Part shown: piece by piece, positions 3,754 through 21,800 of the stretch
How the letters are laid out: each line of letters starts with the position of its first letter
Position numbering within the stretch: position 1 is the first letter of the stretch
Origin: Phoronis ovalis
Lineage: Eukaryota; Phoronida; Phoronidae
DNA: 22,605 bases
Direction of reading: 5' to 3'
Assembly: GCA_028565635.1 (NCBI GenBank)
Contig: JAOXYB010086608.1
Coordinates: 1-22,605, forward strand
Program-made: the position numbers and the translations under genes
Notes under the pieces: model-generated
Databases searched by the model: none
Told to the model about the DNA's origin: nothing
The model's input: only the letters and a program-made list of their open reading frames with translations

Positions 3754-6700
3754 TTAGTAAAATGACGATTTAGAGAAAGTGTAAACAAGACTTACATCAT
3801 CATCATCAGCTCTAAATCTTTCCTCCTCAGACTCTTCAGCCACAGAATTCTCAGGTATGAGTACAACATTAATGTCATCCTCCTCTGAGGAACTACAGGT
3901 TAGTATTGATGAATTCGTATAAAAAACATCTCTAGTAACATTCTGTGCAGATTCTACACTGCTCGACTGGTCCAGTTTTAATCTTTTCCCCACTGTCAGT
4001 TTATTTCTCATCTTCTTTGTAGGTGCAGATAGTTTCGTATCTTTACTAATTGATAGCCGGGGCAAGTTCTTTATTTTGCTGTGATGTCTCTTGGTTAATT
4101 TGTGTTTACGAAGGGAATGTATGTCTATAAATTTTTTCACACAAGTTTTACATTCATATCGACTTTGATTTGCTGTAACATGACAATATCTAACATTGCT
4201 ATCCATATTGCAAGCTGAAGTATTGCTTTTTTCATTATCCTTCTTCTTGTAAGAAAACAGTTGAAGTTTCCGCCTTGCTCGTTTCTTGTCACTTGGAGAA
4301 TAGTCCAGAAAACTATATGGATCAATTGCACTATTATGACCAGCATTATTGTACATTTCACTTTTTATTTTGCAACTTTCTCTTCCATTTTTCATCATAT
4401 CACAACTTTCCATTTTGTTGCAATCCTTTATATCAATTTTCTTTTCATTGGAAGTTTTCACATTCCTGGAAGTTACAATTTCATTTCTAATTTTCCTGCA
4501 ACCCTCATTTCGAGTCATTTCTCTTTCAACTCTTCCCTGTTCTTCATAAATATTTGTCATCAAATTTGAAAATTCATTATTGCCAACAGCTGCTGTAATG
4601 GAATTTCTGATTGGTTGATCTGCTGCTGCCCTTGAATATCTGACTGATTGCCTCTCATGTTCACTTTCATCAGAGTCACTACACGAGGCTTCATATTCTT
4701 CATTCATAACATTAGGTTGAGCAGAATTATCTACAGGATTGTCCATCGTTTGAGTCCCTGCACTAGGAATAAAATGTTCAGTTCTTGAAGATTCTGATTG
4801 AGATTGTAACATATAGTCCGACTGCATTTCAATATTATTAATATGCGATGATTCATTATTGCCAACAGCTGCTGTACTGGAATTTCTGATTGGTTGATCT
4901 GCTGCTGCCCTTGAATATCTGACTGATTGCCTCTCATGTTCACTTTCATCAGAGTCACTACACGAGGCTTCATATTCTTCATTCATAACATTCGGTTGAG
5001 CAGAATTATGTACAAGATTGTCCATCGTTTGAGTCCCTGCACTAGGAATAAAATGTTCAGCTCTTGAAGATTCTGATTGAGATTGCAACATATAGTCCGA
5101 CTGCATTTCAATATTATTAATATGCGATGATATCACATCATCAACAGACAAAGTATTGTGACTGTGTGAATTTGATACACTATTCAAATTTACATTCTGT
5201 CTAACAGTATTCTCTTCAACATTAAATTCAGCTGCTGTATTGTTTAATACTTCCTTCTGCTTCATAGGATTAACATAAGCAACACGTTTCAATTTAGTGT
5301 TATTTCTTTCTACTGTGGTTCCTGATCTAAGTAGCTGATAAGATGACAGGTGCTGTCTTTTAATAATGTCTGATATTTCAGGTTTGTATTGGTAACTTTC
5401 CGCAGTCAGAAGAATAGACGAGTTATAACTGTTTCCTGTAAGAAAGATATTTGTTATAAACATGTTAAAAAATAATAATAATATAAAGCCTAAACATTAT
5501 CTTAATACTTGAACATTTTTACTAAAATATAACAAACTAGAATCACAGAAAAGCAGATTCCAAATAAACACTTTACTTCAAGAGTTCCCATTACTCCAAA
5601 CTAGATTAACAAAATTTAAAACTGTGACGTTTCGTGCCAAAACGAAAAAGTTCTGAGATTATTGAAAGTCTTAGATAGCTAATGACAATGATGATGTCTT
5701 TTGCTTACCAGTAACTGACGAAGGTGATAGGTACATGCATGGGATTTCTGAGGCTAAAAATGGATGGCACGCAGCTTGAATAGGAGTAAATCTTTCAGCT
5801 GAAAAAGAAAATGTTTGATTATTTGTTATGTCAGTGAAAAAGTCTGCTGAAACAGCAAATATTTGCTCAAAAATTTAAATTTTCATATAAACTTACAAAA
5901 CATTTCATGTTCAGTTTTCAAAGCAAGTCTAAGAAATAACGGAAAAGCTGCAGTTACTACTTCGTGTAAATAATCAAGTTTTTACACAATCACATAGTTT
6001 TGTGGACAGCACTGTAAAATTATGAATGGAATTGCTACCTATTAAGTATTTACGTACCTGGATCATACTTTAGAAGACCACACAAGAAATTAACAAATAA
6101 GAAGTCAGCACTATCACCTAACAGCCTTTTCATAGAGTATGTGGCTGAAAATAGTCAGTAAATATCTTCAATAATCCAAGTGACAAATAATTATTTAAAA
6201 TGAAGACATCTATTGTAAAAAACATTAAATTTCAATGTTTCAAAAAAGTTTAAAACATCTAATGATAGTAGTTAAAGCAGAAGATACAGGTAAAGTGGCT
6301 CTTATAGACTTTATTTATATTTATTGTTGCTACGACACTTTCATCTGCAGTGCTGGTGTTCTCATCTAACAGAGACAGATTGTGAATTTCATTTTTCCGT
6401 ATTTTATTGCAATATATACACTCCCAACCGTCAATCACACCAGTAACTGTCAATGATATTTTTTTACGAAACTAGATTAATTACAGTATTTTACCATTTG
6501 TTTGTGCTGAATTTGTTGTTATAGCCTGTAAATCAGGAAAGAATTTTCCTCGTTGAAATGGTTCTTGAGGAATTGGTCCAAGTAACTGTACCATCTAAAA
6601 CAAGTAGTAACATTACCGTGACTTTGACTTGTCATAAACTCTTCAGCATACTGTACACATATTGTATCTCATAACTTTGTATCACCGCGACGTCAACGGG

Positions 6701-9700
6701 TGTAAACAATTATAAGAATTATTGTCCCTGCAGTAAGAATCAAATGTCTTTCTATAGATTTTATTGCATGCAGAAGATACTTACTGATTCCAGATTCATA
6801 CTTCAGAGCTACTGTTAAATCTACTTTTGTCCTTCTAATTAAATGATTATATGAATTCACATACTACAGGAAAAGTGTCATGTTCCAAGTGGCAACAAAG
6901 TCTCCCATCAAAAACCCAATGTTGCAACCTCTACATCATCAGACATGGTTTATTCTCATGAACACTATTGGAAAGGTTCCCAAGCACATGTGTCTATGTT
7001 TAAAACAAATATTTCAAAATGAAAATTCCACTCTCAGGCAGTCAACTATCAAGACAAAAGGTGAATACACAAGAATAGTTTATTGTTGAAATTAAGGGGA
7101 TCATAGCTAAGACTGCTAAAAAAAACTAGCACACTTTTAATGGACTTTGTATCAAACCCAAAATATAACTAAAATTGCGAATCATATGTGCTTTTCTACG
7201 TTTATCTAGCTCCCTATCTCAACCTAGACTATCAAACTTTCTCCAAAACTGTCCATTACTGACAGTTGTTTTTTGATCTGAACAATAATCTTTACCTTTT
7301 TAATTACTTGTTCTTTAGTTAATCCATAAAAAATAGCATCTCCAACATAAAATTCTGCAAGAATACATCCTAGAGACCACATGTCTATCTCCGTGCCAAA
7401 AGGACAGCCAAACATAACCTACAGGAAAAAGGAAAAGTTCCACTTCAGATCTAATTTAGAGACTTATATGAGCATGAGAATGAGATAATTTAAATGCAAA
7501 ATACAAGAACAAGTTTTTACACAGTCTCACATTGTCACACAGAAAAACAGTAGGTGGCTGGTCTTCGTATATACCCTTACCCAACTGGACACATGGCCAA
7601 AACCATCCGCCAGCTCTTGACATTCACTTTTAAGGTTCAGAAATATTATTAATACAAATTATATTAAACACATTTCTAGATTATTCTACACATCAACTTT
7701 CAACCTGACATTCAAGCAATTTTATATAGTCCACTAAATGATAATTTTTTTCATAAAATACTAGCCCTCTACACAAGTAACTTTAGGCTGGTGTTTACCA
7801 CATTTCACCACCGGTGGCGCTATTTCAGAATAAACGTAAAGGTTAAATTTTTCATTTTAATATTTGTTTTTAAAAACTTTAATGTGGTACTCACTGCTTT
7901 TGGCTAAAAAATCAGGTGACTCATAGGTATGTGCGCACTTACCTGTGCTAAAAATTACACCTAATTTAACTAAGTTTCCAATGAGATAAACGATCTAATT
8001 TTTTGGTAAAATTAGTTAATGTGTTTATTCAAGAAGATAACTGGACTAGGGCATATTTCGTTTTTTGTTTCCATTTTACGTTTTTTTTCCATGTAACTCT
8101 TATAAAATCTGCCATTTTCGCTTGAAAATATGTTATTCGTAAAAAACACCGAAACATTTTGAGTATGCCATAAGTACATGATCTCATAATTTACAAAAGG
8201 GAATGCACAGAATTTCAATTATATCCTACTTTACTGCAAGCAACAGTGCTCAGTGGAGCAAGCTCTCCTTCCTGTGGAGATAAGAAAATAACATGTGGTA
8301 GGCACAGAGTGGAGATATTCTGAATTATAGCATGTGTGTCTGGAGATAAATTTTAACCTCTCTTAAGTTACTTGCATGAAAGAAAACAGTCTGGGAACCT
8401 GGTAAACAGCAATGTTTTGCCACCAAATGGCAATGTTCTGCTTTTACCTTGAATTAACTGAGGTATAGTGATACATGACTAAGTACCCTATGATGAGTAA
8501 ATTGACATTTCATAGAGATAACCAGTATATTGTTCAACTTCTTTGGAATCCAACTTAGTTTCACTCATAAATAAACAGAAACAAATGAAAAGTTAAACTG
8601 TACTAGCAATCAAAAAGATTTTTTTTTACATTTCTTGGGTAACAAGGTTTTAAATTTTAGCTTAAATGTTTGATAAATTTCAAAGAGCAAAAGATATAGG
8701 AAAAGAGAGTCTTTTTTAATTGTAAGTGTAACATCAACACAAATTAATCACCAAGGGGTAATAAGTCAAAAGATACAGAAAACACAAATGTTTTTCTTGT
8801 GTTGCTGTCTTTTATTGTTAAGCATATACTTGTTTCTTTTTACCTCAGGTGCTCTGTATAGTAATGTTTGTAACTCAAAGTCCTCATAATACAACGATAA
8901 TTCATCATGGACACAGTGCACTGCATTCCCAAAATCGACAACTTTCAAAGAACTTGGGTCTCCCTCTGCAAGCAGAAATAAGAAAAACATGAGATTTTAG
9001 GAAAAATGTCCTTGCATATAAATTCATTTAACGTGGCGAGAACCGTTAACATGCTGTAACTTGCAAAAAATATTGATATTTTCTTTTTTTGTGAATTCTG
9101 CTTGGCCATATTCTTTGGAATAAATTTACAAAATAAAGTCTCACTTTTCTTGTCGATTTTTAATGAAAAAACAGCCTTTTCTGAAGACCGTTGAAAAGTC
9201 CAACTTTGCTAGAAATCACGTGACATATACGTCCCTCCTACCATATATGCCATTTGACCTAGATCAACATCACAACTCCTGGGAAAGTGGCTACTCGAAA
9301 GAAGCCCAGTGAAAAGTCGCCAAATCCCCGGTCTGCGACTTCAAAGCATTTTTAAAGCTATTATGCTTCACTCATCTATATTCCCTGCATTCCTTCACCA
9401 GCTTCCTGTTGCCTTTTTCAATGTTTCTTTTCTATTTGTAGGCATCGTGATCATCAATTATTTTACGTAATAAGTTGCAACAAATAAATCTTCACTCGGA
9501 AGCGTATTATAAACATGTGTTGACCTATATATCCATAATATGAAAAGCGCCGCCCACATGAATAATCCAGGTCACGTGATTAAAGTTTTCGCGCAATTGG
9601 CTACCCATTCGATTATTTTGTCATTTTTTGACCAATCATGGGCCGAAATTTTGTAGGCACGTGTCGAAACATATTTTATATGCTTTTCAGCTTCCAGACG

Positions 9701-16002: not shown

Positions 16003-17572
16003 GTAAGATTGTAAAAAACTATTTCGTTATGTGTTACAATACAGGTGTCATCTTCAAGTATTAAATTGTTATTCAGTGACGTGTATCAGTGTTTCTATTA
16101 AAATGCCTTCTGTAAAATAAGTTTGACTACACATTAACGCTATCTCGTGATATAGATACCCAGGCTTCCCAACTTCAGTTTGAAATTTCTGTAATTACCA
16201 AGTTGTAAAAGTTGTTGTTGTTTCATAACTTTTTTGGAATATTTCCAAGTTTTTGCACCTATGCAAGTGTGGTGTGAATTGTGATGTTACATGATGTTCA
16301 CATATGACCCCGTCATGATACTTTTGCTTTGCACAGGCTGTCTTATCTGTTGAACTTGAACTTATCTAAAATTACATTGGGTACCGAAATTGCATATTGT
16401 ACTTTGTAAATACAGCTTGTATTCTCAATATTTCAAGATTGTTTTGGAGTGCAAACATGTTTTTACCTGACTAAAATTTACACCTAAAAATAATCTTGCA
16501 ATTTTGAACTTCCTGTACATTGTATCCTTCCATCTAGTATATTATTTATATTATTAATAATTTCACTATAATATGTAAAAATCAATAAAACAGGAATTTC
16601 TTTTCAGCAATTAGGTTTTAGAATTGGTTGCTAAATTTCTTTAATTTTATTCAACTTGGAAAACCCCTCATTTACACAATGCTTGTTTGGCAATTTGAAC
16701 TGCCCATATCCTATTTATAGCAACAGGTTTTGGCATGTATAATTGTTTGTATTTAGGTTCTGTTTGTCATTGTAAATCTTTGAAGGTGAGATAGCTGCAT
16801 AAGTGGTTATGTGGCGAATCAAATTTGTAGGTCACAAATTTGGCATGTATGTAATGGGGCAGTAGCAACTTTGGCCCCACTTCTGTTTTTGTTTACTATA
16901 TATTTTTCTTGATTGGTGATTAATAATTTATACAAAAAAATCTGTTACAGTATTAGTACAGTATAGCTCTACACAGTAACAAAATCTGCATAAGGAAATC
17001 AGCAGGTTAAATAAAATTAATTATGTTTTTGTATTTTGTAATTAGATAATATTGCCAAAACTTGTTGATAATCTACAAATTAGGACTATTTAATGGATAT
17101 TAAACTGAATACAAAATAATGGTCATTAATATCAAAATAGTGGTCATTAATATCAAAATTTGATATGCATCAGTTCTAATTAGTAGCATACTGTAACTTT
17201 ATGACCTTTTCTTTATTTCATGGTCATCCCAATGGCTTATCTGTATCAAATTGATTTTGTTGTCAGATATAATATTTAACCTACATTATCTGTTATATAT
17301 AGTAGGTCACCATTTCAAGATTCAACTTGTATGCAAGTTAATTCTTAATTTACATGCTGCCCTCATAGGATGTAATTCTTAATTAGTAAAAATGCGGGCG
17401 TTCTTTTTAATCAGATCATATGCATAAACTGTTTGAAAATGTGCCAAGAAAAAAACTATAATCACCCCCAAAATACTGGTATAGTCCCAATTAATCATAC
17501 AAGCAACTCACAGTTAGTCATCCATGCTTGGCTATGTGTTCAATTTAATTATCTCGTCTTTTTGATTTTCAG
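16003..17572 (+). other. Intron 1 of the BH3-only gene
   Basis: The AT-rich intron has no recognisable gene. It contains an 18-bp direct repeat (GGTCATTAATATCAAAAT at about 17120 and 17142). Confidence 0.45.
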
Positions 17573-17578
17573 TTATAA

Positions 17579-20500
17579 ATGACTGAAACGCAGGTAGAAA
17601 GTACAGTCATCAAAAGAGATAGATTGAAGAAAACCATGCAGAATCCACCTCAGCCTGTGGAGAGTAACGGAAATAATCCTACAGAACCAATTAAATCGCC
17701 ATTTTTAAATAAGTGTGTATCGAACAGAGATAGCGGCTATGGGAATGATTCCCCAGCTAGTTTGAATACTGGAGGTCACTTTCCTTTACTTACAGACGAA
17801 CCAAGTGCAAATTCACTTAGTGACGGAAATATTACAAATACTTCAGACTTCGAAAAAAGTTCAGAAATGGCAGAAGCTGAACTTATTGATACAGATGATA
17901 TAACTTCGCCTCTTAATAGTTCTACTCCCATAGCAATCCCACGTAGACCTAGGGAGGAGAGGCATCATCGAGCTGTGTCACACCACCGTCCTATACAACA
18001 TCGATATTCAACAGGATCTTTTGGATATTTACCGAGCGAAAGCCAACAACGAAGTATATCAACACAAACACCGAGTCTTCCTGGACATGCGCATGTATGT
18101 GAACAGGTACAGTGGCAGTTGGATTCTGGTGAGGACTACGAGTTCGGGGCAACTCCACTTGAACAACAAAATACACCAACAGCACGAGGTAAGGTTTTAC
18201 TTTGAGAAAATGATTTAGTGTATATTTTGGGTTAGATACACATTTTATTATCAGAGGTAGATGACTCCCAAGGATGTGGTCTATCACATCGGCATTTGCA
18301 TGTGTTATGCATTTTCTAGTACAGAAGATGTGAAAGGATTTGTATTTGAATGATGTAATTAACATGCTTTTGATATCAAGTACTTGTAACAGATCCAGCT
18401 AAAATTAAAACTAAGTTTATTTGGCATATAGCCCTACCTACCCAAAAATATGATCCTACTCAAAAGTTTTTATTCCATAAATCATGTCATCTTTTTTTAT
18501 TTCTTTAGTGATAAAAATTGTAGTTGCATTCATAGGGATTGTACAGCGAAAACAAACTGTTACTGTGCTGCCTAGAAATGGTTCTGTACATAACTGTTAC
18601 TTATATCCTCAAAAAAGGTGTATATGCATCTTCATACATTTTGATTTTTTAAAAATCTACCTTCTTACCTACCCAATTTTCTAGATCCCTAGCTGTGGCA
18701 ACAAACATTTTTTTAATCTGGCCTGATTGTAAAAAAATAGGAAGACCAGTGTTGATAAAAGTAGCTGTAAGCTTTCATCACTGAAATAATTCTAGTTTGC
18801 TTTGTTGAAAACCATAGACCCAATAATAATTAGTAATAATATTACCTATATTATTGTACCAGACTACACCTTCATATAGAAGATGAAGGAAAGTCAAGGT
18901 GTCTGGGGGTAGTTATTTTGATTTCTTTGATTAAGGGTTAACCAAAATCCGGTCATCAATAACTGAACTGGATTCTGTAAACCATTGTTTACCTCATACT
19001 ACAATCAGCTGAGTTTCTAACTTCCTTGGCTTGATCAATATTTATTTTTGGGCGAGGTCAAAAAGCCACAAGAGTTCCTCATGACATTTACATGTGTTAG
19101 AAGTGTAGGAATTTATCAATACTAATTGCTGTTTAGAAAACTTAAAGCAAGTCACACAAAAACAAAGTATACCTTGTATTGTTTAGAAAACTTAAGTGAA
19201 GGTAAACAAAAACAAGACATTGTGTGATGGTATGGTTGGCATGACATCAGCTGATTTTGAAACCCCATCAACAAATAGGGTTTTTACATAGAAGCATTAA
19301 ATATACTAACAACTTGATTCCATGGGCTGTTTAAATCAAATATATCATACTGAATGTTTATATGCATGACAAAGTGCTAAATAGACAACATTTAGTAAAA
19401 AAAAATCATATTTCTGTTATTCACCATAAAGTAAATATTATCTGATTATACCACTACACCTGTTAGCCTGTTAATAATAACTGGTTAATTCAACTTAACA
19501 AATTATTACCTGCATGAAGTAATCTAACCAATAATTAAAACAGCTAGGGTTACTGAGTGCATTTAGGAGGGTGTCTTTATGTTTACAAAAGAACTGGTAG
19601 AATATTAATAAGAATAAGCTGTTTTGCTGATAATGTTAGATAATTGGCAAGGTGTCCACACAGTTATTTACTAAATAGACAAGTGTTTTCTTTTTTTCGC
19701 TTGAGGCAACGTGTCAGTTTAAGGTTATTAAGGACATTTTGTTGCCTTTAAGTACATATGTTATTGTACTATGTTATTTTTAGAATGAGTCTGATTAAAA
19801 AATACAGATTATTATCAAATTTATCGATGTGCATTAGATATGTACAGGATGAAGAAACAGATTTTCTTCAAAATTTGAAAGAAAAGTAACCATGAGTAAT
19901 AACGTAAACAAAACAATAACACCGCCCCAAAAGAATCCAAATTTCATAATATAGTATTTGTCATCAAAATCAACATTGGCCAACATCCAATTTAAGTAAG
20001 TTAATGCACACTATATACAAAAGACTAGATTATCTTCTCAACTGAGTAACCAATGTGTATTGAAGCTTCTGGAGTAACTATTTAGTTGCTGAAACTCTGT
20101 AAACCTGCTTTAATGACTTTCTTGTATTATATCTTTCATGCTTCAACTCATGAAAATTGAAAATTTTAATAAGCTGTTAATAGACTGGAAAGTACATAGA
20201 AAAGAAAATTGATAATTGTGTGTAATAGTAGCTTTGTATAAGCTATTATATGACAATAATAGCATTAGATATGTAGTGATAGGTTTTAATTTTCAGTTCC
20301 TGTAAATAAAGTATTTTTATTCCCAGAGTGATTATGAATTTATGATACATAATTAATATTATGTATGTAGGATGAGGAGCTTTAAGTTTATTTTAATGGG
20401 ACATATTCTGTGTTGGCCTTTGCAAATTTATTTAATGAAAATGAATAGAAATATGCGATTTTTTTTTTGAAGATCTTAATCAGACACACACTTTTAAATT

Positions 20501-21373
20501 AAAGTAAACAAAAAAAACAGCAGGGGAAATAGTAACTTGATGATCATCAGTATGTATTGTGTCTGGGCTTGTACTTTTGATAGAGTAGATGGTAGCATAT
20601 GGTTTTAGATGTTGTCTGCTATAATTAGCTTTTTATTGACTTCTACTGTTGGTACCAGTTTTCCATTTCAGGTGTGTTATTTTTGTTTACTAAATGATAT
20701 CACTATTGGTATAAACAGACACTTTGTAAACAGTGATTTGAAAGAAAGTCATTAATTTCCATAAAGTGTTATTTACTAATAAAGAAATGTTTACAAAATC
20801 ATGAATAAGTAATTAACATTGTGTGCGAGTAACATAGCATTGTTTGCTTGCCCAGTATCTTTAACAATTTTATTTCCAAAATAAATTAACATAAATCTTT
20901 GCATGATCAGGAGCATATCTTTTATCATTTCTGTGTAAACAGTGAATGAAGATGTTTCCAACATACTTAGACTCACCATAATGACACTGGTCTAATAAAT
21001 TATTGTTATTTTCAGAGAGCACTGGGAATTGACTCAAATTTTGTTAATTTTATTTATTTTAATATACATGAATTTATTTGTTTCAGGTGCAGGATTAGAA
21101 CAGTTCCAGGAAATCTTGAGTCAAAGTTGTGCAGAATGTAGGACAGGCTTGCCAGATGTAGTACAAGTGCCAAGGCGCAGACGAAGCGAACCTCATGTAC
21201 GTCCATACAGGCGCGATGTGGAAAGAGATTTCGGCCGAGAATTACAAAGGATTAGTGATGAATTTCACGTATCCTATCAGTGCGAAGCTGGACGACCAAG
21301 CTCAATTAGGGTAAATAATACTGCTTTGCTTTGCATGCACTACATGACATTTTTTCTGAGCTCTTCATGGTAA
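17579..21373 (+). CDS. BH3-only apoptosis inducer, BIM/BMF-like, with a dynein-light-chain motif
   Basis: Exons: 17579-18188 (203 codons plus one base, donor AG|GTAAGG) and 21087-21373 (acceptor TTTCAG, joined in phase), giving about 298 residues. BH3 motif: FGRELQRISDEF at residues 252-263 (21230-21265). It matches vertebrate BIM (AQELRRIGDEF) in the Leu, the small-Asp-Glu triad and all four hydrophobic positions. Such motifs insert into the groove of BCL-2-type guardians or BAX/BAK to trigger mitochondrial apoptosis. STQTPS (161-166) matches the LC8 dynein-light-chain motif that BIM and BMF carry N-terminal to BH3. DSGYGNDSP (51-59) resembles a DSGx(2+n)S beta-TrCP degron with a MAPK-type Ser-Pro. 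No BH1, BH2 or BH4 region is seen. The C-terminus ALLCMHYMTFFLSSSW is hydrophobic. A donor after residue 278 (AGG|GTAAAT) may create an alternative end. Assignment to BIM rather than BMF is uncertain. Confidence 0.82.
18059..18076 (+). other. LC8/DYNLL-type binding motif STQTPS
   Basis: Residues 161-166 (S-T-Q-T-P-S), preceded by RSI. BIM carries DKSTQTPS and BMF DKATQTLS at the equivalent place before BH3, binding DYNLL1 and DYNLL2 respectively. The Lys at -3 is replaced by Ile here, which may weaken but does not abolish the match. Confidence 0.65.
18189..21086 (+). other. Intron 2 of the BH3-only gene (2.9 kb)
   Basis: GT at 18189 pairs with AG at 21085-21086. No additional coding exon with matching phase-1 borders was found, though short optional exons cannot be excluded. 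A diverged 35-40 bp direct repeat (TGTTTAGAAAACTTAA, ending in an A-rich CAAAAACAA) lies at about 19130 and 19180, period 50. Confidence 0.5.
21230..21265 (+). other. BH3 motif
   Basis: Residues FGRELQRISDEF, with h1 Phe, h2 Leu256, h3 Ile259, small Ser260, invariant Asp261, Glu262 and h4 Phe263, followed by HVSYQ. The preceding Arg-rich segment (RRRRSEPHVRPYRRDVERD) is basic. The Leu and Asp that define functional BH3 motifs are both intact. Confidence 0.88.
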
Positions 21374-21800
21374 ATTTAGTAACTGCACAATATTGCAGGG
21401 AGAGGCATTTGACTGATATTTTTAAAGGTGCCTCTTGTCAATTATGCGAGTTAACACTGCATAATTAAGTTTTTGAGTTTATATTGATAGGACTTATATT
21501 TAATACAATGTTCCACAGTTAATTGCTACTAATATATCAGTGAGACTGTTACATGGCTAAGATTTGATGCTAAAAAACAATTAAGTCCTGTAACAAAATA
21601 TGTATATCTATAGTTTGATGAATCATTTGTTCAAATCGATATAAAATTACTGTAACACAGGTGTTGCCGCATTCCAAGCGTTACTAATAGTTGTTTGTAA
21701 ATATTAAAATGTACATAATGTAGCATTTGTTGCTTGCAATGTTATTTATTGTTATTTGTTACGTTTTGATTGTTATAAATAAAAGTTATATTAAATGCTG
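21374..21800 (+). other. 3' UTR of the BH3-only gene
   Basis: It follows the TAA at 21371-21373 and ends with AATAAA at 21778-21783. It contains TGTAAATA (21696-21703), a perfect UGUANAUA Pumilio element, and an AU-rich GTTATTTATTGTTATTTG stretch near 21740. This favours 21087-21800 as a true terminal exon rather than a mis-read intron. Confidence 0.5.
21778..21783 (+). terminator. Poly(A) signal AATAAA of the BH3-only gene
   Basis: It lies 405 bases after the stop codon in the composite terminal exon, followed by AT-rich and then T/G-rich sequence (about 21830-21890). Confidence 0.5.

Follow-up and report, generated by a model that had tools for sequence, protein, structure and literature searches.

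BAD is held under 14-3-3 control via an R-x-x-S-x-P site upstream of its BH3, and we know of no LC8 motif in that protein. EGL-1 is an invertebrate BH3-only killer. Sayonara is another, the text of whose paper is silent on dynein, LC8 and BIM, and the phoronid gene described here resembles both as a candidate invertebrate BH3-only killer. Within the literature searched, the pairing of a BH3 with an LC8 (dynein-light-chain) motif was found described for vertebrate BIM and BMF only, and a search covering few subscription papers found no invertebrate BH3-only protein with an LC8 motif. The LC8 motif of BIM reads DKSTQT and, according to a review, contains a JNK site (Thr116) and a ubiquitinated lysine (Lys112); BCL2L11 (BIM) binds LC8 with an affinity of 0.16 µM (PMC6607443, in the part available), an isoform with a retained intron has been described, and BIM is reviewed as binding 14-3-3 following phosphorylation by Akt. 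A 2025 review treats LC8 chiefly as a dimerisation hub and not as a cargo adaptor, though it makes an exception of a BIM-LC8-BMF bridge; the “cytoskeletal sequestration” envisaged in a sequence-only reading of the present locus is therefore debated.

For lophotrochozoans, oyster and mussel papers state, in the sections available, that no BH3-only protein was found in molluscs or bivalves, and the available text of a squid paper classes Bnip3 as BH3-only. PMC8998228, in its accessible part, regards BH3-only proteins as potentially present in Lophotrochozoa; the legend of its figure 5, which by its own wording covers the BH3 region only, names BH3 candidates of Capitella, Lingula, Octopus, two oysters, scallop and Lottia. 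Unlike the gene considered below, these candidates are presented in a main text that mentions neither dynein nor phoronids.

The window (the whole 22,605-nucleotide stretch of Phoronis ovalis DNA that was analysed) contains a 208-codon ATG open reading frame starting at 17579 and a BH3-bearing frame at 20999–21373. Joining 17579–18188 to 21087–21373 gives 897 nt, or 298 residues plus a stop. The sequence-only reading had proposed that a single invertebrate protein on these two exons carries both a BH3 and STQTPS, the LC8-type motif coming first; both elements were indeed found in the joined protein, STQTPS at residues 161–166 and the BH3 core FGRELQRISDEF at residues 252–263. Coding exon 1 (17573–18188, plus strand) comprises 203 codons plus one base and ends in the donor GAG/GTAAGG; a phase 1 intron of 2898 bases (18189–21086) separates the LC8-motif exon from the BH3 exon (21087–21373), which closes with the stop TAA at 21371–21373, and a candidate polyadenylation signal, AATAAA, lies 405 nt past the stop (21778–21783). 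The acceptor TTTTCAG ends at 17572, has pyrimidines at 11 of 14 positions, and is followed by an in-frame TAA immediately 5' of the ATG at 17579. No ATG frame of at least 208 residues arose in 100 Markov copies of the window, the longest reaching 138. The exon 1 donor reaches 7 of 9, a value found at 50 plus-strand GT sites, seven others having 8; the exon 2 acceptor is ordinary (9 of 14 pyrimidines, with 164 AG sites equal and 128 higher). The intron has a GC content of 30%, against 42% in exon 1 and 47% at 21087–21310, and the two exons resemble each other in GC by codon position. A two-exon gene (17579–18188/21087–21373), presumably spliced and expressed, is supported by the upstream acceptor with its in-frame TAA, the fair donor, the AATAAA, the contrast in GC and the codon-position pattern.

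The last 20 residues of the protein (VNNTALLCMHYMTFFLSSSW, 21311–21370) form a mildly hydrophobic tail that is uncertain, because an alternative donor after 21310, AGG/GTAAAT, scores the same as that of exon 1 (7) and the codon pattern of this stretch is not coding-like; it may instead be intron. No convincing further exon was seen on inspection by eye of the 1.3 kb that follow 21310. Were the main intron retained, the frame would end within a few residues (GKVLL, 18189–18205), yielding an LC8-motif product that lacks the BH3 and is comparable to the retained-intron isoform of BIM. Disorder-prone residue types make up 67% of the protein, as judged from composition alone, and no other domain in the joined protein exceeded a Pfam cut-off.

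In the BH3 core (21230–21265, plus strand) all four hydrophobic positions (h1 F252, h2 L256, h3 I259 and h4 F263), the small residue (S260) and the invariant aspartate (D261) are present. The strict BH3 pattern, defined as a hydrophobic h1, E-L/F-x-x-I/M, a small residue and DEF, occurs once in the window's six frames (42,183 residues), at FGRELQRISDEF. Ranked by hydrophobic moment, the top five of 283 16-residue windows start at residues 246–250 and overlap the BH3, the exact BH3 16-mer itself ranking only 10th. An AlphaFold model of the BH3 frame, made from a single sequence with translated intron attached, placed a helix at the BH3 with a pLDDT of about 47–48; the translated intron was modelled with more confidence than this helix, and the model is therefore uninformative.

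The sequence-only reading had described the BH3 as closest to BIM, a view that the rank order of matches, with BAD first both among solved structures and in Pfam, does not support. The top structure match was BAD peptide 2bzw_B (17.0 bits, E 0.044, with 10 of 18 aligned positions identical), followed by BAD 1g5j_B, a stapled BAD peptide, OR280 and only then BIM, whose peptides scored 14.3 (E 0.36), 13.6 and 13.6 bits, with PUMA at 13.4 and two engineered proteins after it. The 11 matches at E<=10 comprised three BAD, three BIM and two PUMA peptides along with OR280, OR277 and OR276, and OR280, by its name no BH3-only protein, stands above BIM. In Pfam the exon-2 frame scored 17.7 bits to BAD and 13.8 to Bclx_interact, both below their curated cut-offs (28.2 for Bcl-2_BAD); for the joined protein the sole hits were BAD (16.8) and a yeast repeat, neither above cut-off, and no solved structure matched it at E<=10. 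The BH3 thus appears nearer to BAD than to BIM by the small margin of about 3–4 bits, the Pfam scores being sub-cut-off.

How readily such a segment arises by chance was gauged with 400,000 shuffles of the joined protein, of which 0.042% contained a strict BH3. In simulated 80-Mb genomes strict BH3s appeared five times in 36 runs and not at all in one more, a rate of about 0.14 per genome irrespective of coding status; in one of the five, EF replaces EL. Reduced to E-L/F-xx-[IM]-x-DEF, the core is found four times in the real genome against once for the reversed pattern, and 87 times over 37 simulated runs (2–3 per 80 Mb), so that by itself it is at chance level. In the other three genomic copies the Asp is preceded by His, Leu or Phe, and only the window copy has a small residue there. 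A match in a bacterial genome, FGEELQRISDES, was rejected as a chance occurrence: it lies inside a 447-aa frame whose neighbours look bacterial by eye, and it lacks the h4 Phe. Its presence in what seems to be an enzyme-like frame shows that BH3-like strings arise in unrelated proteins too.

These figures bear on the possibility that the gene encodes an unrelated disordered protein with a chance BH3-like helix, which the bacterial string and the simulated rate would allow. Homologue searches likewise offered no sign of conservation in collections with few animal genomes: there were 623 candidates for the full protein and 74 for exon 1, none at E<=1, and two for the BH3 frame, none at E<=10. 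However, the strict pattern stands in frame within a supported coding exon, is rare among the shuffles, and is found in a protein with no competing Pfam domain above cut-off. We therefore regard a chance helix as quite unlikely, and a BH3-only-type gene of the phoronid as credible on the sequence evidence.

STQTPS (18059–18076, plus strand) is a putative LC8 anchor by sequence rule. The flank preferences given in the available part of PMC6607443 are a polar residue at -4, one at least the size of valine at -3, none that is bulky at -2, then TQT, with Pro at +2; RSISTQTPS satisfies all of those listed there, with Ile at -3 as against the more usual Lys or Arg. If Lys112 is the K of DKSTQT, Thr116 of BIM is the second Thr of TQT and equivalent to phoronid Thr164, which is followed by Pro165 and appears to match the human position. 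The LC8 segment had no match among solved structures. A candidate LC8-binding site is credible by this rule.

On the minus strand of the same window, a 580-aa open frame at 3754–5496 contains a duplicated segment with SAGTQTMDN present twice, the flanks of its two TQT cores being poor, and a weak, sub-cut-off C2H2 zinc-finger match. Minus-strand exons at 7224–7418 and 8766–8996 match the protein kinase profile, and 41 residues of the former are nearest to DYRK1A among solved structures (E 7e-7); the 580-aa frame may be part of this kinase gene or separate from it.

LC8 cores arise readily by chance. TQT was present in 8.2% of the shuffles, TQT with favourable flanks in 0.73%, the exact STQTPS in 0.0088%, and a strict BH3 together with TQT in 0.005%. 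The unrelated protein bassoon contains the identical hexamer STQTPS, and a bassoon peptide ending FSTQTPSP binds LC8 strongly (PMC6607443, in the part available). Such figures, combined with the leading position of BAD in Pfam and among structures and with the published lophotrochozoan candidates, whose available text omits dynein, support a reading in which the protein is a genuine BH3-only protein, BAD-related or of an unplaced invertebrate lineage, and the TQT is accidental or convergent, perhaps lacking LC8 function. The satisfied flank preferences and the Thr in the position of the BIM JNK site weigh on the other side, and we give this reading somewhat less than an even chance. It shares all but the LC8 part with the explanation that we favour, in which LC8 binding is functional, and the two are not mutually exclusive.

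Comparison with the individual vertebrate proteins gives a mixed picture. As in BIM, the BH3 has all key positions, an STQT-type LC8 motif lies N-terminal of it (putatively binding, by sequence rule), the two are encoded on different exons, and a Thr occupies the apparent JNK-site position. Unlike BIM, the phoronid protein has a BH3 core slightly more BAD-like and 85 residues between LC8 motif and BH3, parallels BIM's hydrophobic C-terminal tail only weakly and uncertainly, and shows no BIM family in Pfam as a joined protein, Bclx_interact appearing for the exon-2 frame below cut-off. With BMF it shares a BH3 plus an LC8 motif, yet Pfam lists no BMF family for it, and none of the 11 structure matches is a BMF peptide, in a library that may contain none. 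BAD is the top BH3 match, although the Pfam score falls well under the family's cut-off, and an R-x-x-S-x-P stretch upstream of the phoronid BH3, of a kind common in shuffles, may parallel BAD's 14-3-3 site. Outside both motifs we found no homology to BIM or BMF in Pfam or solved structures, searches that distant homology could escape. The joint presence of a BH3 and an LC8 motif would be suggestive, but not proof, of common descent with BIM and BMF, and membership of the phoronid gene in that family is not established by these sequence comparisons.

Common descent would make this an ancestral BAD/BIM/BMF-like gene, with LC8 control of a BH3-only protein in place before the protostome/deuterostome split. 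The order of the motifs on separate exons, as in BIM, and a BAD-like BH3 with R-x-x-S-x-P nearby are compatible with this, and two echinoderm BH3-only candidates are likewise long (373 and 350 residues; PMC8998228, in its accessible part). However, Pfam shows no similarity to BIM or BMF beyond the BH3, a single species is involved, and LC8 motifs are easily gained; we consider such an origin unlikely. Ancient LC8 control of BH3-only proteins, which the sequence-only reading tied to conservation of both motifs, is possible and unproven, the searches in collections with few animal genomes having given no homologue.

Two further stretches resemble regulatory sites. RRRRSEP (residues 233–239; 21173–21193, plus strand), between the LC8 motif and the BH3, fits R-x-x-S-x-P and is a possible basophilic-kinase/14-3-3 site; its Ser237 lies 19 residues N-terminal of the h2 Leu256. 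It could bind 14-3-3, the match being a weak one in that 21% of shuffles contain its like. DSGYGNDSP (residues 51–59; 17729–17755, plus strand) is a possible phospho-degron-like stretch, a resemblance that we presume from its form; DSG followed by Ser at such spacing occurred in 2.9% of shuffles.

The genome searched, in which the window lies, was a 77.4-Mb assembly of 4805 contigs. A phoronid genome exceeds 77 Mb by a wide margin, and the assembly is therefore perhaps partial. Within it, exon 1 and the BH3 segment each match only themselves. A BAX-like exon on contig C1421 scores 55.7 bits to PF00452, above cut-off, with E 8e-13 to BAX, and contig C7 carries two divergent BCL-2-like exons about 28 kb apart (L003 and L004; E 4.2e-5 and 0.13), both below the PF00452 cut-off, of which the second had no match among solved structures. 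Matches to 14-3-3 number 14 (best E 2e-51), of which three contain internal stops. LC8 was not found in the assembly by family and peptide searches, empty results that carry little weight.

The assembly also holds a mitochondrial contig, C1114 (15,713 bases), on which 13 protein genes were named by eye from open frames and tRNAs. Above Pfam cut-offs were cox1, atp6, cox3, nad3, nad1, cob, nad4L, nad4, nad5 and cox2; nad2 was matched by the Proton_antipo_M family only, nad6 was sub-cut-off (E 0.0005) and atp8 was weakly suggested (E 0.016). Along the cox1 strand run cox1, cox2, D, atp8 and, later, tRNAs, cox3, atp6, E, nad3, S1, nad2. After atp8 comes a reversed block, F, nad5, H, nad4, nad4L, S2, cob, nad6, nad1, L, L, rrnL, V, rrnS, Y, within which T and P sit on the cox1 strand; rRNA positions were placed from gaps, and a few doubtful overlapping tRNA calls were omitted. 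With atp6 between cox3 and nad3 (tRNA E preceding nad3), away from atp8, this order is that of the chiton Katharina apart from atp6. According to PMC2678162, phoronids arrange their protein and rRNA genes as Katharina does except for atp6, with no new place stated for that gene, and solenogasters retain atp6 within the cox1 block; for these reasons the animal is most likely a phoronid.

Taken together, the best reading, which we hold to be probable, is a BH3-in-groove action with LC8 control, the LC8 part being its weaker half. The protein would be disordered, with the BH3 segment (residues about 246–267) folding into an amphipathic helix that inserts into the groove of pro-survival BCL-2 proteins of the same animal. 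Their occupancy would free BAX/BAK-like effectors, such as the product of the BAX-like gene on contig C1421, and lead to mitochondrial apoptosis. An LC8 dimer would attach to residues 156–167, bringing together either two copies or one copy and a different LC8 client, and would keep the protein restrained until proline-directed phosphorylation of Thr164 released it from LC8, in the manner reported for BIM; a BAD-like 14-3-3 lock may be added through phosphorylation of Ser237. We infer expression, splicing, and every binding event and switch in this scheme from the gene's sequence and from the described systems.

A bolder version, improbable in our view, is that BIM's LC8 switch with its Thr-Pro release site, a BAD-like BH3 and a 14-3-3 lock survive together here from the common ancestor of BAD, BIM and BMF. 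If true, light-chain and 14-3-3 control would be older than the protostome-deuterostome split and would later have been divided among vertebrate paralogues. With its full BH3 and well-formed LC8 motif, this lophotrochozoan gene opens two matters to testing: the existence of a three-part BCL-2 system in lophotrochozoans, and an origin of LC8 control over BH3-only proteins earlier than the vertebrates.
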